A DNA stretch of 21,731 bases, taken from a virus. This document shows positions 65 through 21,731 of this stretch, piece after piece. Every line of letters begins with the position of its first letter. The stretch's first letter is position 1. The notes under the pieces were generated by a model. The model was not told the DNA's origin, did no database searches, and saw only the letters and a list, made by a program, of their open reading frames with translations. The stretch lies in IMG/VR virus record IMGVR_UViG_3300025168_000780, positions 1-21,731 of that record. One strand, given 5' to 3'. The translations under genes were made by a program, and so were the position numbers.

Positions 65-586
65 ATGGCAATCAGTTGGGCTCAAGCCGGAGTTGATCCA
101 AAAAGAAGATTTAAGTTTAAACTTAAGCTAGGTGATGTGGCGGAGTACTATGTCAAAACGGCAACAATGCCCAAGGCAAATGTTTCCACAATAGAACATA
201 GCTACTTCGATTACAATTTTAAGTTCCCAGGTCGTGTTACTTGGGATCCGATTACGGTAACGATGGTCGCTCCATCTCAGGGAATTGAAGACCCAACAGA
301 CTTACTCTATGATTACTTTAGAGTTGCTGGATATTTCTTTCCCGATGAGTCCCCAGGCTTGACTGCTAATTCTCTTTCTAAGCAAGGATTTAGTGATGCT
401 TTTGGTGGCGACCCTCAACTACAGTTGATGGATGGCAGCGGAATGGTCATTGAGGAATGGACTCTCCGTAATGCTTTCTTAACAAATGTGGATTACGGTG
501 GTAGTTTAGATTATACATCGGATGAAATGCTTGAGCTTTCAATGGAAATCTCATTTGATTGGGCACAGAAGACACAATCAGGCTAA
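65..586 (+). CDS. Tail tube protein, T4 gp19-like
   Basis: A 173-residue protein of the gp19 family, whose hexameric rings stack to form the inner tube of a contractile tail. Its length is close to T4 gp19 (163 residues). Seen features are the N-terminal basic strand (RRFKFKLKLGD), the repeated beta-rich pattern, the central FPGRVTWDPITVTMVAP segment typical of tube proteins, and a C-terminal strand ending ELSMEISFDWAQ. The start follows a GGGAG site at 50-54. It is followed by the gp26-like gene and the tape measure, the usual tube, assembly protein, tape measure order of tailed phages. Assignment is from remembered family patterns. Confidence 0.85.
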   Translation: MAISWAQAGVDPKRRFKFKLKLGDVAEYYVKTATMPKANVSTIEHSYFDYNFKFPGRVTWDPITVTMVAPSQGIEDPTDLLYDYFRVAGYFFPDESPGLTANSLSKQGFSDAFGGDPQLQLMDGSGMVIEEWTLRNAFLTNVDYGGSLDYTSDEMLELSMEISFDWAQKTQSG

Positions 587-623: not shown

Positions 624-1490
624 ATGAGCAGAAATGAAGGACGCTTCAGTGCAGCCGAGGGTTCCCCAACTCCAGAGGACGAGGGGACTTCGGCTGTTGC
701 TGCATCTGCGGCAGGTTCGCAGTTTAATTGGGCATTGCCCACAGAATTTGTGGAGCTACCCAGCAAAGGTAAATACTACCCACCGGGACACCCTCTACAT
801 AATCAGGCAACGGTAGAGATAAAGTATATGACTGCCAAAGAAGAGGATATCCTAACGGATCGTGCTCTTCTCAAAAAGGGTATAGCAATTGATCGAGTCC
901 TGGAGAATTTGATCGTTAACAAAGCGATCAAACTTGATGATTTGCTAGTTGGTGATAAAAACGCAATCCTAGTGAAGGCAAGAACTACAGGATATGGATC
1001 AAGTTATGATACACGAGTAATCTGCCCGAACTGTCTTACACCTTGTGAGCACTCATTTGACCTAGAAGAGCTTGGACATATTGATTTTGAACAATCCTTA
1101 GAAGATGACGAGGTTGAATTAACAGAGAGTAATACATTTAGAGTCACACTTCCAATGTCAAAAGTTACGATTGAATGTCGGATGCTGACTGGTGGGGATG
1201 AAAGCTCTATCGCAAAAAAAGCACTCCGAAATGACCGTAAGAATGAAGCGTCAACCACTTTGACAACACAGTTGGGTATGTTGATTGTTTCCATAAACGA
1301 TAATACTGATAAATTTACAAAAGCTAAGTTTATTGCAGCGATGCCAGCCAGAGATTCACGATACCTGAGAGGTATCCTAGAAAAAGTCACTCCTAACATT
1401 GATATGACTCAAGACTTTGAGTGCGAACATTGTGGTGAACAAGCGGTCCTGGAGGTGCCGCTGAACACTGACTTTTTTTGGCCTAAGTGA
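624..1490 (+). CDS. gp26-like baseplate/tail assembly protein (T4_baseplate family), frame-0 product
   Basis: A 288-residue protein resembling the T4 gp26 baseplate family. Family features seen: LPSKGKYYPP near residue 45, a mixed motif around ATVEIKYMTAKEEDIL (62-77), and a central all-beta part. Two Cys pairs, CPNC (134-137, with Cys141) and CEHC (267-270), could form a zinc ribbon. The N-terminal 35 residues are Ser/Ala/Glu-rich and probably disordered. The protein ends FFWPK, and the two Phe codons lie in a run of seven T. Its place between tail tube and tape measure is the usual position of tail assembly chaperones, which in many phages have a frameshifted longer form. The start at 624 follows GAAAGG at 609-614. 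The role is inferred from family and position. Confidence 0.7.
   Translation: MSRNEGRFSAAEGSPTPEDEGTSAVAASAAGSQFNWALPTEFVELPSKGKYYPPGHPLHNQATVEIKYMTAKEEDILTDRALLKKGIAIDRVLENLIVNKAIKLDDLLVGDKNAILVKARTTGYGSSYDTRVICPNCLTPCEHSFDLEELGHIDFEQSLEDDEVELTESNTFRVTLPMSKVTIECRMLTGGDESSIAKKALRNDRKNEASTTLTTQLGMLIVSINDNTDKFTKAKFIAAMPARDSRYLRGILEKVTPNIDMTQDFECEHCGEQAVLEVPLNTDFFWPK
1473..1479 (+). other. Probable programmed frameshift site (seven-T slippery run)
   Basis: The frame-0 codons GAC TTT TTT TGG CCT AAG TGA place two Phe codons on a run of seven T, four codons before the stop. A P-site Phe-tRNA moving one base forward, or two bases back, would continue into an open frame of 66 codons that has no start codon of its own. 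A one-base backward slip meets TAA after two codons, so it is excluded as the productive event. The site is seen directly; use of it is inferred. Confidence 0.6.
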
Positions 1491-1680
1491 TGAGTACGCT
1501 GAATCAATCTACGAAGAATTCTTTAATTTAAAGTACTATGGAGGTTGGAGCTTTTTTGAGGCTTACAATCTGCCGATCGTATTAAGAAGATGGTTCTTAC
1601 GAAGGCTTGTGACGCAAAAAGAAAAAGAAGCTAAATCGCACGATGATGCGATGAGAAAAGCAAAATCAAAGCGTCGCTAA
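1480..1680 (+). CDS. Start-less C-terminal extension of the gp26-like protein (frameshift product)
   Basis: This 66-codon frame begins GLSDEYAESIYEEFF, continues YYGGWSFFEAYNLPIVLRRW, and ends in a Lys/Arg-rich tail. In this frame a TGA lies at 1462-1464. The first ATG after it is at 1651, near the end, and a GTG occurs only late (about 1609), so ordinary initiation cannot produce it. The composition is protein-like, and the segment resembles small helical tail proteins with a G-G-W/F, EAYNLP and RRWF pattern. Joined to the upstream gene it would give about 351 residues. The alternative is a decayed separate gene, but the frame is intact to its stop, which argues against decay. The ATG at 1490, overlapping the frame-0 stop, opens only 13 codons in a different frame. 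Confidence 0.6.
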   Translation, partial: GLSDEYAESIYEEFFNLKYYGGWSFFEAYNLPIVLRRWFLRRLVTQKEKEAKSHDDAMRKAKSKRR

Positions 1681-1746: not shown

Positions 1747-2085
1747 ATGCTTACTGAAGACCAATTAAAAGAAATAGTGTTCGATCTTGGCGCTGCTCGC
1801 AAAGGGCAGCTTGATGAAAATATCCTTCATGTCTTCGCTGCGTGGATTGAGTATTTGCTATCAAAAATGTATAAAGGCAGGCGAATTCCGGTTAAGGTCC
1901 GGGGTAACAGAATAGAGGTTCAGCGATTTACCGATGCCTTGGTTAACGAAAAAAGATATATGGATTATATCAAGAAATACGGACTTGATGATCCAATGAC
2001 CTACAAACAAAAGTCAAAACTTAACGTGGCAATTAAAAGATTTGAGCGAGAAGCACAAATTAATTGGCCTATCAAAAACCCATAG
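1747..2085 (+). CDS. Small tail-region protein of unknown function
   Basis: A 112-residue, mostly helical, basic protein that is not recognised. Visible features are an amphipathic N-terminal helix (LTEDQLKEIVFDLG), a basic beta-like segment (RRIPVKVRGNRIEV, residues about 47-60), and a C-terminal helix rich in Lys and Arg. There are no membrane segments and no cysteines. The start follows GAGGA at 1737-1741. It sits between the gp26-like gene and the tape measure, so a role in tail assembly is a reasonable guess from position alone. Confidence 0.75.
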   Translation: MLTEDQLKEIVFDLGAARKGQLDENILHVFAAWIEYLLSKMYKGRRIPVKVRGNRIEVQRFTDALVNEKRYMDYIKKYGLDDPMTYKQKSKLNVAIKRFEREAQINWPIKNP

Positions 2086-2096
2086 GACCCTAAGCC

Positions 2097-4541
2097 GTGG
2101 CTGACGAAAAAACACCAGATGAATTAGCGGAGCAAGCCAAAGCCGCCAAAGCGGCAGCGGAAGCTACTGAATTATTAACTGCACGACAGAAAGCCCTTGA
2201 AGAACAAGGTGGCTTGACCCGTAAGCAGCTTAACGATATTAATTCTTCCCTTCGGGAACAGCTTAATTCTTATACAGATATTAATTCAATTACTGACGAA
2301 TATCGTGCAGTTATTAGTACTCTTGCCAGCGTCGAGGCGGACTTAGCGAGGGCTCAAGGCGAAGGAAACAAAGTTCTTGAGGCGCAATTGCTGTCTCTTA
2401 AAAAGACCAACGAAGAACGCAAAAAAGCACTTGAAGTAAAGTCCGCCGACGCTGACGAAACCAAAGACAAAATCGTTCCTGGGCTTAAAGAACTCGGTGA
2501 TGAGCTTATAAATAACACCAAGCTTACTGCTGAAAACACCAAGAAGCGTTCCGAAGCACAACTCGCCTTAGATAGACTTTCAGATTCTGAAACCAGATCT
2601 GGGCTTGCCCTCAATTCATTTTCAAAGGCTCTTTCCGTAGCGAAAATGCAGGAAGCAGACTTCTCTGCCGGTGGCATGGATATGGTTGGCACCCTAGCAG
2701 AGATAGGGTTTAAGTTTGATGCCGCCTCGAAGGCAGTAGAAGTAAATACAGGACTAGGAAGACAGAGCGTTGAGCAAATGAAGTCCCTTGTTTCTGAAAA
2801 TTATGAACTTGGTGTTACAACGGAAGAGGCTTCAAAAGCAATATCTACATTGAATTCTCAATATGGCGGGTTTATTGGGGCCAACCAAGCGACGCAGAAG
2901 GAACTGGCGAATACAGTCCTTCAGCTTGAAAGACTTGGTGTGTCGTCTGAATCATCTGCCAAGGCACTTGACTTGTTGGACCGAGGATTTGGCATGGGCG
3001 CTGATGGTGCCAGGGAGGCTCTCGATGAGTTTGATAAACTGGCCCAGGGTTTATCGTTGCCCACATCGCAAGTTGTCGATGACTTTACAAAAATAGGACC
3101 TCAGCTTGCTCGCTTTGGAAAACAGGGTACCAAACAGTTTGCATCACTGTCAAAGCAGGCTAGGTCTCTTGGGCTTAATATTGAGGATGCCTTCAATATT
3201 GCTGAGGCGATGGATACGTTTGAAGGCGCTGCTGATATGGCAGGGAAATTGAACGCACAACTAGGGCTGCAAATTAATTCTGTTGATATGCTGGGGGCTA
3301 CTCACGAACAACGTATAGAGATGCTCCGACAAGAGTTTAAGCAAAGCGGACAGAATTTTGATCAGCTTGATAGGCGTCAAAAACAAGCCGTTGCTGAAAT
3401 GATGGGGGTATCTGTTGACGTTGCTGGTAAACTTTTCGGTGATCCAGTTAAATATAAGCAATACCAAAAAGATCAAGAGGAAGCTGCTGCCCGAGCCGAA
3501 CGACTAACCGCCGTGCAAACAAAACTAGCCGCTATTGGTGACAGGCTTATGGTTGCTTTTGGCCCTGTATTGACTCTGTTCTCGGGACTTGCTAATATTT
3601 TATCGTATGGATACATACCACACGCAATTGCTTTGTTTACTGGGTTTATCGGAGTTCTTAAGACTTTATCAATGGTAAAGTTGGCTGTTGCCGCTGCGGA
3701 ACAAATGGGTGTCGCCTCAACAAAATCATCAATACTGGCAAGAACAGCCGAAAATGCAAAAACCTTAATTGGAATAGGGCTTGATAAGATTAAGGGCTTC
3801 TTCAGGTTAAAAGAGATCGCCGACACCAAAAAATCAATAGGCATGAAGATTATAGAAAATGAAGTTGAAGAAGAACTTAATGACACTAAGAAAGAAAGTG
3901 TCAAGCAAAGCGGAAATTCTGGAATGGCGGCGATGAAATTAATACCTATAATGCTAGCCTTGGGCGCTGCTGTACTTATGGTTGGTGCTGGAATTTATTT
4001 GGCTGCGACAGGTATGGCCAACTTTGTTGATGCATTTGCTAAATTAAGCATGGAGCAAATTGTTGCCTTTGGGTTTGGACTAGTAGGACTCGCAATAGGG
4101 TTGTATATGTTGATTCCGGCTTTGGCTTCGTTCGCTAGTAGCTTAGTTTTATTAGGCGGTGGCGCAGCCATCGCAGGATTATTGGCTCTTGGACTCGCTC
4201 TAATGATGATTGGTGCAGGTATTGGAATGATAGCCGCTGGTGCCGGCGCTGCATTTGAGGGAATTTCTAATGTGCTTGAGACGTCTTCTACAGTATCACC
4301 AGCAAATATGAAGGCAACAATGCAAGTTTTAGATAAAATGATTGACGTGCAGGTAGCCTCTGCATTTGCAAATGTACCAGCGTTGACCGCTATAGCCGAT
4401 TCGGTGATGTTCGGTGGTGATGATACACCAGGCGGCGAAAGATCTTCTGAGAAAACAATTGAACTTAAAGTTAATGAACGAATTTTAGGGAATGTGGTAG
4501 TAGATATTATGAACAATCGTTATGATCTTACTCCGAGGTAA
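2097..4541 (+). CDS. Tail tape measure protein
   Basis: An 814-residue protein with the composition of a tape measure, which sets tail length and is carried inside the tube. Residues 1-160 are Ala/Glu/Lys/Leu-rich with long predicted coiled coils. Residues 170-480 are helical, with many Gln, Ser and Ala. A hydrophobic stretch lies near 484-525, and a strongly hydrophobic Gly/Ala-rich region near 616-725 could form several membrane segments, as in tape measures thought to help DNA cross the inner membrane. It uses a GTG start 11 nt after the preceding stop; no good in-frame ATG is close. It is longer than T4 gp29 (590 residues). The identification rests on composition and gene order, not on a catalytic motif. 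Confidence 0.75.
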   Translation: MADEKTPDELAEQAKAAKAAAEATELLTARQKALEEQGGLTRKQLNDINSSLREQLNSYTDINSITDEYRAVISTLASVEADLARAQGEGNKVLEAQLLSLKKTNEERKKALEVKSADADETKDKIVPGLKELGDELINNTKLTAENTKKRSEAQLALDRLSDSETRSGLALNSFSKALSVAKMQEADFSAGGMDMVGTLAEIGFKFDAASKAVEVNTGLGRQSVEQMKSLVSENYELGVTTEEASKAISTLNSQYGGFIGANQATQKELANTVLQLERLGVSSESSAKALDLLDRGFGMGADGAREALDEFDKLAQGLSLPTSQVVDDFTKIGPQLARFGKQGTKQFASLSKQARSLGLNIEDAFNIAEAMDTFEGAADMAGKLNAQLGLQINSVDMLGATHEQRIEMLRQEFKQSGQNFDQLDRRQKQAVAEMMGVSVDVAGKLFGDPVKYKQYQKDQEEAAARAERLTAVQTKLAAIGDRLMVAFGPVLTLFSGLANILSYGYIPHAIALFTGFIGVLKTLSMVKLAVAAAEQMGVASTKSSILARTAENAKTLIGIGLDKIKGFFRLKEIADTKKSIGMKIIENEVEEELNDTKKESVKQSGNSGMAAMKLIPIMLALGAAVLMVGAGIYLAATGMANFVDAFAKLSMEQIVAFGFGLVGLAIGLYMLIPALASFASSLVLLGGGAAIAGLLALGLALMMIGAGIGMIAAGAGAAFEGISNVLETSSTVSPANMKATMQVLDKMIDVQVASAFANVPALTAIADSVMFGGDDTPGGERSSEKTIELKVNERILGNVVVDIMNNRYDLTPR

Positions 4542-9896: not shown

Positions 9897-11105
9897 TTGT
9901 TATTTCAAACTTTAGATGATAAGTCAGAGTGCGTCGGGATTTATTGCGACGGGCAATTAATATTTGACTTAGTGGATTTTCCTGAACAGATCTCTAGGAC
10001 GTGGAAATACTCTTCGTACTTACGAGATATAGAAGACATAGAGTATGCTAGTCTGTACCTTCAGGGACAGGACATACAGGATGCTATCCCAGAATATTTG
10101 AAAGATGACTGGGAGGATACGTCGGACAAGATCCGTGCGTTCCACAGGTCACTGCAAATATCAAAAGTAAATCAGTTTGAGAATTGTTTTTTTGATTTGG
10201 TTCCACAACGATTCCTGGTTGACTTTTGTGAAGTCAAGAACGATATTACAGATTACATCATAAAAAACATTGACAGGCCACAAAGATATGACTATCTTCT
10301 TAAGGTGTGCCAAATGCTAGAAGATATATCAAATAGAAGGCTAAACATAAATCTTAAGAAGTTGAAATCCTACCCAGAGAATAATATTCTAAAAGACATT
10401 TCTACAGGGAGCAGGTTTATAACTTATAATCAGTTTGGTACAAAGACTGGAAGATTAAGCACAGCTAAGAAGTCTTTTCCAATCCTAACGCTGAAGAAAG
10501 ACTATAGATCAATTATAGAGCCGGTCAATGACCGTTTTCTGGAGATCGACTTCAACGGGGCCGAGGCTCGTGTTCTTCTTGGGTTACTGGGAAAACAACA
10601 GCCTGACCAAGATGTTCATAACTTTCACCGGGATGAGGTTTTCTCTGGATCATTAACCAGAGAACAGAGTAAGACATCTTTTTTTGCGTGGCTATATGGG
10701 GCCAAATCAATCAACAATAGCAAAGAGGGCGATGTACTCAAGAGCTTCTATGATAAAGAAAATGTTGTCAATCAATTCTGGGATGGGACAACAGTAACAA
10801 CATCTTTGGGTAAAGTTATAAATGATGTTGACAGACATCACGCACTGAATTATATTGTTCAATCTACAACTGCTGAACTCACTTTGTTACAAGCTCTTAA
10901 GGTTGACTACCTATTGAGGACTAGGGCAAAAAAATCATTTATCTCTTGTATTATTCACGATTCTGTGGTTATAGATTTATCCGATGAAGACTCTCATCTT
11001 GTTCCATCTATAAAAGCTTTGATGAGTTCAACAAAATTTGGTGTGTTCAAGATAAATACTAGTATGGGTAATTCCTTGGGGAATTTAAAACACTATGAAG
11101 AATAA
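9897..11105 (+). CDS. Compact family A DNA polymerase, no exonuclease domain recognised
   Basis: A 402-residue protein holding the core motifs of DNA polymerase I-type enzymes. Seen in order: TKTGRLST (182-189); motif A, FLEIDFNGAEARVLLGLL with catalytic Asp218; the O-helix REQSKTSFFAWLYGA with Arg255, Lys259, Tyr267 and Gly268; LNYIVQSTTAE (317-327), equivalent to the Asn and Gln of Klenow; and motif C, IIHDSVVIDL, with Asp355. The usual Glu after that Asp is Ser356. The polymerase part is much shorter than Klenow, and the first 160 residues show no DxE exonuclease motif, though SECVGIYCDGQLIFDL could be a remnant. The start is TTG with AAAGAG just upstream; no ATG suits. It follows structural genes by 14 nt, away from the replication block. 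Possible roles are gap repair or RNA primer removal; both are inference. Confidence 0.8.
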   Translation: MLFQTLDDKSECVGIYCDGQLIFDLVDFPEQISRTWKYSSYLRDIEDIEYASLYLQGQDIQDAIPEYLKDDWEDTSDKIRAFHRSLQISKVNQFENCFFDLVPQRFLVDFCEVKNDITDYIIKNIDRPQRYDYLLKVCQMLEDISNRRLNINLKKLKSYPENNILKDISTGSRFITYNQFGTKTGRLSTAKKSFPILTLKKDYRSIIEPVNDRFLEIDFNGAEARVLLGLLGKQQPDQDVHNFHRDEVFSGSLTREQSKTSFFAWLYGAKSINNSKEGDVLKSFYDKENVVNQFWDGTTVTTSLGKVINDVDRHHALNYIVQSTTAELTLLQALKVDYLLRTRAKKSFISCIIHDSVVIDLSDEDSHLVPSIKALMSSTKFGVFKINTSMGNSLGNLKHYEE

Positions 11106-19376: not shown

Positions 19377-19610
19377 ATGGCTACCCTAAACTTTATTATG
19401 CCCGATGATCTTAAAGAGGGCTTTTGTGAACGAGAAGAAAAGCAGTCCAAGAACAAACACACTTGGTTGCCATCGGGACAAACACGAGCAATTGTTGGTG
19501 ATGAGATAGCCATTGAGTGCTATTGTAAGCACTGCAATATGCGTGAGTGGACTCAAACTTCTCGCTTTGAATTTGAAATGCTACAGGACTATTGGAAGGA
19601 ACTAAGATGA
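19377..19610 (+). CDS. Small Cys-containing protein, unknown function
   Basis: A 77-residue protein, not recognised. It has Cys17, His28 and a cluster CYCKHC (Cys48, Cys50, His52, Cys53) followed by MREWTQTSRFEFE, so one zinc ion could be bound. The cluster resembles short phage zinc-ribbon halves with a following R/E-W-T. It has a strong ribosome site, AGGAAAGGAG at about 19361-19370. Its stop overlaps the next gene's ATG (ATGA), suggesting coupling with the GroES-like gene. Confidence 0.7.
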   Translation: MATLNFIMPDDLKEGFCEREEKQSKNKHTWLPSGQTRAIVGDEIAIECYCKHCNMREWTQTSRFEFEMLQDYWKELR

Positions 19611-19858
19611 AACCATTGAATCGCAGACTACTTATTGAAGTCACAGAGGAGGAACCAGAACAGGGAGCATTCTTCGTTCCGGCGGAGGAAAAGGTTGAAG
19701 AGTTCTTAGCGGCTAAGGTTATGGACTGTGCTATTGACTGCACTACCGACCTAACCGGCAAGACTGTGGTCATCCATTCTTTTGGGATAGAAGAGGTAAC
19801 GGTCAGAGGAAAGAAATATACTTTCATTGGCGAGAATCACCTGATCTGTGTAGAATAA
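19607..19858 (+). CDS. Very small GroES-like co-chaperonin
   Basis: An 83-residue protein with GroES-type layout. It starts MKPLNRRLLIEVTEEEPEQG, matching the GroES N-terminus (R-P-L-x-D-R and E-x-E). Next is a short mobile-loop candidate GAFFVPAEE with the hydrophobic trio that binds GroEL. The ending KKYTFIGENHLICVE matches the GroES C-terminal strands. T4 gp31 (111 residues) plays this role for capsid folding. An in-frame ATG at 19592 exists, but 19607 has AGGA 6 nt upstream and gives the GroES-like beginning, so it is preferred. The middle (VMDCAIDCTTDLTGKTVVIH) is divergent. Confidence 0.65.
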   Translation: MKPLNRRLLIEVTEEEPEQGAFFVPAEEKVEEFLAAKVMDCAIDCTTDLTGKTVVIHSFGIEEVTVRGKKYTFIGENHLICVE

Positions 19859-20733: not shown

Positions 20734-20762
20734 AAAACCATAAGAAAATAGAAAGGTTGCTA

Positions 20763-21731
20763 ATGGATAACCGCACCGAAAGCAAGATCCCATTCGTGGG
20801 ATTACATGCTCACTCTGGACTCTCACCGTTTGACGGGCTGGGGATGCCTGGCGAACATATGGACTTCGCCTATGAGAATGGGATGAACGCCCACGCTCTG
20901 ACCGACCACGGTCACATGAACGGGCTCTCGTTTCAGGTGGAACATTTAAAGAAAATGAAGGAAGACGGTAAAGACTTCCGAGCCATCTACGGATGCGAAT
21001 CCTACTTCATTAAGTCCCATCGTAAATGGCGCACGATGTACGAGGAGCACAAGGCTAACTCTAAGAAGCAGAAGAAGGAAGAGTATGGGATGGTCATCGA
21101 GGATGAGGACCGCCAGAAGAAGTTCAATCCTCTCAATAGCCGCAGTCACCTTGTGATGTTTGCCCAGAATCAGACCGGGTTAAATAATCTTTTTAAACTA
21201 GTTTCTGATAGTTACCAGCCTGAAAACTTCTATCGTTATCCTCGTATGGATTTTGAGATGCTAGACAAGTATAACGAGGGGCTCATCATCAGCACCGCTT
21301 GTATGTCTGGTCCACTGTTTGGAGACTTTTGGAAGAACCGAGATAAGAGTCCAGACCATGTACTGTCTGCAATGCGGGACACTATTGCTCAGTTCAAGGA
21401 GATCTTCGGCGACAGGTTCTACGGAGAGATCCAGTGGAATGATATTCCTGAGCAGCATCTCGGCAACAATCTTATTATTCAAGCCTGTATGGAAATGGGC
21501 GTAGAGGTCATCAGCACAGCCGATAGCCACTACCCACGACCAGAGCTTTGGAAAGAGCGAGAGATGTACAAGCGCATCGGCTGGGGAGGCAAGATCCCAG
21601 CGTGGGCTGAGGGCGGTAACGGCCTTCCCGACTCGGTTGATGAGGTCGGCTATGAACTCTATCCGAAGAACGGCGACCAGATGTGGGAGAGTTATAAGAG
21701 CTACTCCGCCAAGCATCGCACCGAGTACGAT
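20763..21731 (+). CDS. dnaE: DNA polymerase III alpha subunit (DnaE-type), N-terminal part only
   Basis: The first 323 residues of a bacterial-type replicative polymerase; the frame runs off the window, so the catalytic palm and the rest are unseen. The part seen is the PHP domain. GLHAHSGLSPFDGL gives His15, His17 and Asp24. ALTDHGHMNG gives His49. IYGCESYF gives Glu79, and SRSHLVMFA gives His129. IISTACMSG gives Cys180, and ISTADSHYPRP gives Asp254 and His256. Together these match the nine metal ligands of PHP domains that retain activity; E. coli DnaE has lost some of them. A Lys-rich insertion spans about 86-120. GAAAGG lies 6 nt before the ATG. It has a terminator-promoter boundary of its own. 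Confidence 0.88.
   Translation, partial: MDNRTESKIPFVGLHAHSGLSPFDGLGMPGEHMDFAYENGMNAHALTDHGHMNGLSFQVEHLKKMKEDGKDFRAIYGCESYFIKSHRKWRTMYEEHKANSKKQKKEEYGMVIEDEDRQKKFNPLNSRSHLVMFAQNQTGLNNLFKLVSDSYQPENFYRYPRMDFEMLDKYNEGLIISTACMSGPLFGDFWKNRDKSPDHVLSAMRDTIAQFKEIFGDRFYGEIQWNDIPEQHLGNNLIIQACMEMGVEVISTADSHYPRPELWKEREMYKRIGWGGKIPAWAEGGNGLPDSVDEVGYELYPKNGDQMWESYKSYSAKHRTEYD

Follow-up and report, generated by a model that had tools for sequence, protein, structure and literature searches.

The stretch of DNA analysed here, referred to below as the window, is the IMG/VR virus record IMGVR_UViG_3300025168_000780, positions 1–21,731 (21,731 nucleotides), and all coordinates are given on it. The following features were assigned:

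65–586, plus strand: tail tube protein (T4 gp19-like), the upstream gene; phrog_4542, E 1.5e-20
624–1490, plus strand: gp26-like tail assembly chaperone, short form, 288 aa, frame 0; PF12322, phrog_150
1451–1455, plus strand: Shine–Dalgarno (SD)-like GGAGG, 17 nt 5′ of the first Phe codon, retained in the near clade
1462–1464, plus strand: TGA in the +1 frame, 8 nt 5′ of the T run, which restricts the position of a shift (read from the sequence)
1470–1484, plus strand: putative shift site GAC_TTT_TTT_TGG_CCT, conserved in 109 +1 clusters
1480–1680, plus strand: T domain, 66 codons and a stop in the +1 frame, the predicted C-terminal part of the long form (about 351 aa)
1747–2085, plus strand: 112-aa ORF between the chaperone and the presumed tape measure
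2097–4541, plus strand: presumed tail tape measure protein, 814 aa, assigned by position and size

The resemblance of ORF 624–1490 to T4 gp26, which had been suggested from the sequence alone, was borne out by family searches, in which this ORF matched PF12322 (57.6 bits against a curated Pfam cut-off of 24.5; E 1.9e-15) and phrog_150 (E 9.4e-19). The tail tube gene additionally matched PF06841 (E 6.4e-6), at a score under the curated cut-off. Searches against Pfam and phrog gave no convincing family match for either the 112-aa ORF or the presumed tape measure protein, and a tape measure is annotated at the corresponding place in phages immuto and LIS04. The gp26-like gene is thus situated between the tail tube and the presumed tape measure, which is the position of the G/GT-type chaperones.

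The 3′ end of the gp26-like gene reads GAC TTT TTT TGG CCT AAG TGA. The sequence-only reading had reported a run of seven T followed 12 nt later by the end of the gene; the run is indeed seven T long (1473–1479), and the stop codon ends 11 nt past it. Beyond the stop of frame 0, the +1 frame continues as had been described, open from 1465 to 1677 (71 codons, 66 of them past the slip) with no ATG, GTG, or TTG, up to a TAA at 1678–1680, and after the two Phe codons (FF) it encodes GLSDEYAESIYEEFFNLKYYGGWSFFEAYNLPIVLRRWFLRRLVTQKEKEAKSHDDAMRKAKSKRR. The two restrictions placed on entry into this frame were also recovered, in that the +1-frame TGA at 1462–1464 forces entry from 1465, and a −1 slip would end quickly, at a TAA about three codons beyond the T run.

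Relatives of the window were collected to establish the frame of the extension. With tblastn, Microcystis phage Mel-JY01 and the huge phage LR756508 were found to carry the extension in the +1 frame, overlapping their gp26-like gene. At least 600 IMG/VR stretches encode relatives, of which 80 were kept, and later scans added loci near Immutovirus and the cyanophages, giving 262 loci for analysis, 162 of them in the group formed by the window and Immutovirus-like phages. Within this group, the extension lay in the +1 frame in 160 of the 162 loci (155 complete and five ending at a contig end), including Flavobacterium phage immuto and Mel-JY01, and in the −1 frame in the other two (L053 and L055), which form one cluster. 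When the relatives were grouped at 90% identity, 109 clusters had a +1 extension, or 110 clusters when the −1 relative is included. Conservation of site, frame, and extension, which the sequence-only reading had proposed as a check, was found in 160 of 162 loci and 109 clusters, with strong synonymous constraint, and the arrangement exceeds what chance would give. The +1 extension likewise occurs in SP-15, LIS04, and GXN1, and the same arrangement was found in seven loci on MAG contigs binned with Flavobacteriales, Saprospiraceae, and other bacteria. A scan of genome contigs with the LIS04 protein gave no matches. The phages sharing the +1 site make up a large group, most of them aquatic.

The two Phe codons and the codon that follows them fell into few classes among the 110 clusters: TTT TTT TGG (78), TTT CTT TGG (22), TTT TTT TAC (3), TTC TTT TGG (2), TTT CTA followed by TTC or TGG (2), TTT TTT TTT (1), TTT CTT TAC (1), and TTC TTC TGG (1), the last being the −1 relative. 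An in-frame UUU_Y was present in all 109 of the +1 clusters, so that P-site re-pairing one base forward would be available in each, and UUU_Ynn has been reported to be especially prone to +1 shifting in bacteria (PMC5009743). The −2 slip known from phage Mu would produce the same fusion with one extra Phe. On the seven T of the window, tRNA-Phe could move back by two bases and pair again, and a −2 shift leads into the same frame as a +1 shift. At TTC TTT TGG (L038 and L041) and at TTC TTT CGT, the site of Streptococcus phage GXN1, however, a −2 slip would put tRNA-Phe on UCU, meaning that two-base-back re-pairing does not hold for all relatives, and TTT CTA sites suit −2 poorly as well, whereas UUU_Y fits every +1 cluster. 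A −2 slip is accordingly very improbable, and of the two routes that the sequence-only reading had left open, +1 is favored by the relatives and −2 is disfavored.

The same site classes bear on explanations that place the change of frame outside translation. Slippage of RNA polymerase on the T run would yield mRNAs with one U fewer or two more, and the seven T of the window and of most relatives would suit such slippage, but 27 of the 110 clusters (TTTCTTT, TTTCTA, or TTCTTTT) contain runs of no more than four T and still retain the +1 frame, which makes this explanation extremely unlikely. Runs of T are error-prone on some sequencing platforms, and an error of sequencing or assembly in the homopolymer would also separate the two reading frames; yet about 110 clusters, drawn from numerous metagenomes, isolates, and MAGs, repeat the frame relation, and homopolymer-free sites show it as well. 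A homopolymer error, whose probability is close to nil, was ruled out by this comparison.

The limits of the conserved +1 frame coincide with the FF codons. In 105 +1 clusters, stops of the +1 frame before the first Phe were found at codon −8 (25), −4 (30), and −2 (11), and no +1-frame stops were found from codon −1 to +15. The residues read in the +1 frame are variable upstream and near-invariant from FF on (F, F, G, and L in 98, 98, 94, and 100%, respectively). The T domain might instead be a small protein in its own right, begun at an internal start or by re-initiation, as a usable start exists in some relatives, Mel-JY01 is annotated with such a protein, and the cyanophage T ORFs have an ATG just beyond the stop in 22 of 23 clusters (in P-SSM2, this corresponds to the annotated 57-aa gp51). 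Against this possibility, the window has no ATG, GTG, or TTG in frame ahead of the domain, and in 37 of the 109 clusters none occurs between the nearest upstream stop and the seventh codon beyond the slip; in 26 of the 109, all seven table-11 starts are absent between the last stop and the slip, leaving no access to the second frame from an ordinary start. The remaining +1 clusters carry chance starts. We consider a separate protein quite improbable.

The bases around the site are more constrained than the encoded amino acids demand. The codon ahead of FF, where it is NNY (66 clusters), ends in C in 65 and in T in one, where the corresponding share of C is 26% over these genes and 31% at codons that precede other TTT codons; where it encodes Asp, it is GAC in 24 cases and GAT in none. 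The only NNT before FF belongs to the L053 cluster, the extension of which lies in −1. The Pro codon after the site is CCT in 110 of 110 clusters against a background of 39%, an invariance attributable to the Leu codon of the +1 frame, which requires it. Because the clusters are related to each other, these counts are not independent draws, and binomial figures would overstate their independence. Further upstream, 25 of the 30 clusters of the near clade have GGAGG in a matching position, and the Glu codon within it is GAG in 25 of 25, compared with 39% in the genes. The motif lies 17–20 nt from the slip, and at that distance it is not conserved in the immuto group. The SD-like GGAGG of the window (1451–1455) sits farther from the slip than known stimulators. 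RNAalifold detected no downstream RNA structure in two groups.

These observations are very probably explained by a +1 programmed ribosomal frameshift at UUU_Y that would yield a short and a long tail assembly chaperone. Most ribosomes would terminate at 1488–1490 and release the 288-aa short form. Some would move one base forward at UUU_U, the peptidyl-tRNA-Phe passing from UUU at 1476–1478 to UUU at 1477–1479, after which GGC at 1480–1482 would be read next and translation would continue to the end of the T domain, the C-terminus of the resulting long form (about 351 aa). On the model of lambda G/GT, coating of the tape measure protein would fall to the short form, and recruitment of tail tube subunits to the T domain. 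The site, the frame, the synonymous constraint, and the homology are all read from sequences, and it is from these that we infer the occurrence of the slip, its efficiency, and the role of the two forms in assembly.

The short form was also modeled. An alignment-based AlphaFold2 model of the 288 residues reached a pLDDT of 88.7, compared with 34.5 for a single-sequence model. VIA-align applied to Foldseek-ranked chains placed residues 27–126 nearest to YqbN (3klu, Z 5.9) and the HK97 chaperone (2ob9, Z 5.5), both modest values under Z 8 that lend support to a chaperone fold without establishing it, well ahead of the remaining chains at Z 2.9 or less. Foldseek against the PDB alone gave a best E of 1.5 for the short form, and a sequence-based search of solved structures gave no convincing match.

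Outside the +1 groups, the T domain was found in the −1 frame of the same gene in cyanophages, HTVC008M, Cr30, KVP40, phiW-14, PA5oct, 121Q, a Vibrio jumbo phage, RAS14, XacN1, and LR756511. In nearly all of these −1 phages, the heptamer T_TTT_TTY lies at the same FF codons, the slip context being less clear in Vi01. The codon before FF ends in T in 23 of 23 cyanophage clusters, and the cyanophage −1 frame reads FFR, which is conserved upstream of the ATG chosen by annotators. The cyanophages and jumbo phages (P-SSM2, S-PM2, KVP40, PA5oct, and 121Q), each with one full PF12322 or phrog_150 copy per genome, share the gene and the FF codons with the window and have a homologous T domain, but they would slip −1 at T_TTT_TTY, unlike the +1 of the window. 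The homology of the domains was evident in hhalign comparisons of the +1 T domain with the cyanophage −1 domain (E 1.2e-7) and of the latter with the C-terminus of T4 gp51 (E 6e-12). The direct comparison of the +1 T domain with gp51 was weak (E 0.044), and the two are therefore connected by way of the cyanophage domain.

PF12322 is present in full twice in T4, in the short gp26 and in gp51, which has a C-terminal tail. The former is the counterpart of the short form, and the latter consists of PF12322 and a tail whose homology to the T domain is traced through the cyanophage domain, so that T4 has a duplicated gene pair instead of a frameshift. The end of T4 gp26 (GAG TTC TTT GAG) lacks the −1 heptamer, and no T domain lies behind it. 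In the phylogenetic tree, gp26 and gp51 of T4 and 44RR formed one clade, which fits an origin of the pair by duplication. In three Bacteroidota genomes with contractile-injection-like loci (L298, L299, and L300), the PF12322-like and T-like parts form one in-frame protein, which would correspond to the long form alone. In two of the three, the T-like part is matched by DUF6760, which suggests kinship between DUF6760 and the T domain. An extension in frame 0, which the sequence-only reading had named as evidence against a frameshift, is therefore present in distant relatives (T4 gp51 and the injection-system-like loci) and nowhere in the clade of the window. A weak second PF12322 match with internal stops was seen in one +1 phage, the L029 record (G002:C1:42395-42730), and is perhaps a decayed copy or a chance match.

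The +1 relatives formed two groups in the tree, one with the window, Immutovirus, and LR756508 and the other with SP-15, LIS04, and GXN1, and L053 was nested in the first. In L053 (3400–3560) and L055, the site reads AAT TTC TTC TGG and the extension is in −1 inside the +1 clade, an apparent switch of direction or else an unrecognised sequence change. Considering these patterns together, it is likely that members of one homologous chaperone family have changed between −1 and +1 shifting and that the selected base before FF sets the direction, NNT (giving T_TTT_TTY) with −1 and a base other than T with +1; L053 and L055 would have regained NNT and −1, and the T4 pair would have been fixed by gene duplication.

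The idea that this family is the T4-side counterpart of the lambda and Mu chaperones, which had been raised from the window alone, is correct but was already published in 2022. As relayed by later papers (PMC10885494 and PMC12846349), Vladimirov et al. (2022) identified T4 gp26 and gp51 as tail assembly chaperones and described T4-like phages, some of which have a short gene and a longer fusion gene; poly-T −1 signals are also credited to that study (PMC12846349). A 2010 paper had remarked on the reduced gp51 of cyanophages (PMC3037559), and a 2016 review still gave T4 as an exception to chaperone frameshifting (PMC5009743). Lambda G/GT and the Mu chaperones share with the window the place of the gene between tail tube and tape measure, and they slip −1 and −2, respectively, whereas the window would slip +1. 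The +1 direction is shared with HF1-like haloviruses and HSTV-2, where the HF1-group site TTT-CGC is also UUU_Y (PMC7230728, PMC5009743), although these are archaeal viruses and their +1 chaperone frameshift is a proposal (PMC7230728). Influenza A PA-X (UCC_UUU_CGU) shares the P-site slip from UUU to UUC with the GXN1 site TTC TTT CGT C, but it belongs to a eukaryotic virus and its gene is unrelated to the chaperone. No earlier account of the +1 clade was found in the literature searched, which left most subscription journals out of reach, and the broad +1 UUU_Y clade in the T4-type family, together with the base-level signature of direction, appears to be new.

Many T4-type phages therefore appear to use a chaperone frameshift, in both directions, beside lineages with a duplicated or fused gene. 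The family offers a natural experiment on what sets +1 versus −1 slipping on nearly identical codons, and it provides a bacterial UUU_Y site with neither a stop codon in the A site nor an obvious RNA structure. Current annotations miss or wrongly split the T domain; in immuto (MW353176), SP-15 (KT624200), and Mel-JY01 (PP395634), the annotation shows it as a stand-alone short hypothetical protein or covers its tail only. Elsewhere in the window, a GroES-like co-chaperonin at 19592–19858 matched PF00166 with 23 bits, barely over the cut-off. The window also contains a short family A DNA polymerase gene (9897–11105, 402 aa, PF00476) and, at 20757–21731, a PHP-domain protein resembling the start of a DnaE-like polymerase, a polymerase type different from that at 9897–11105.
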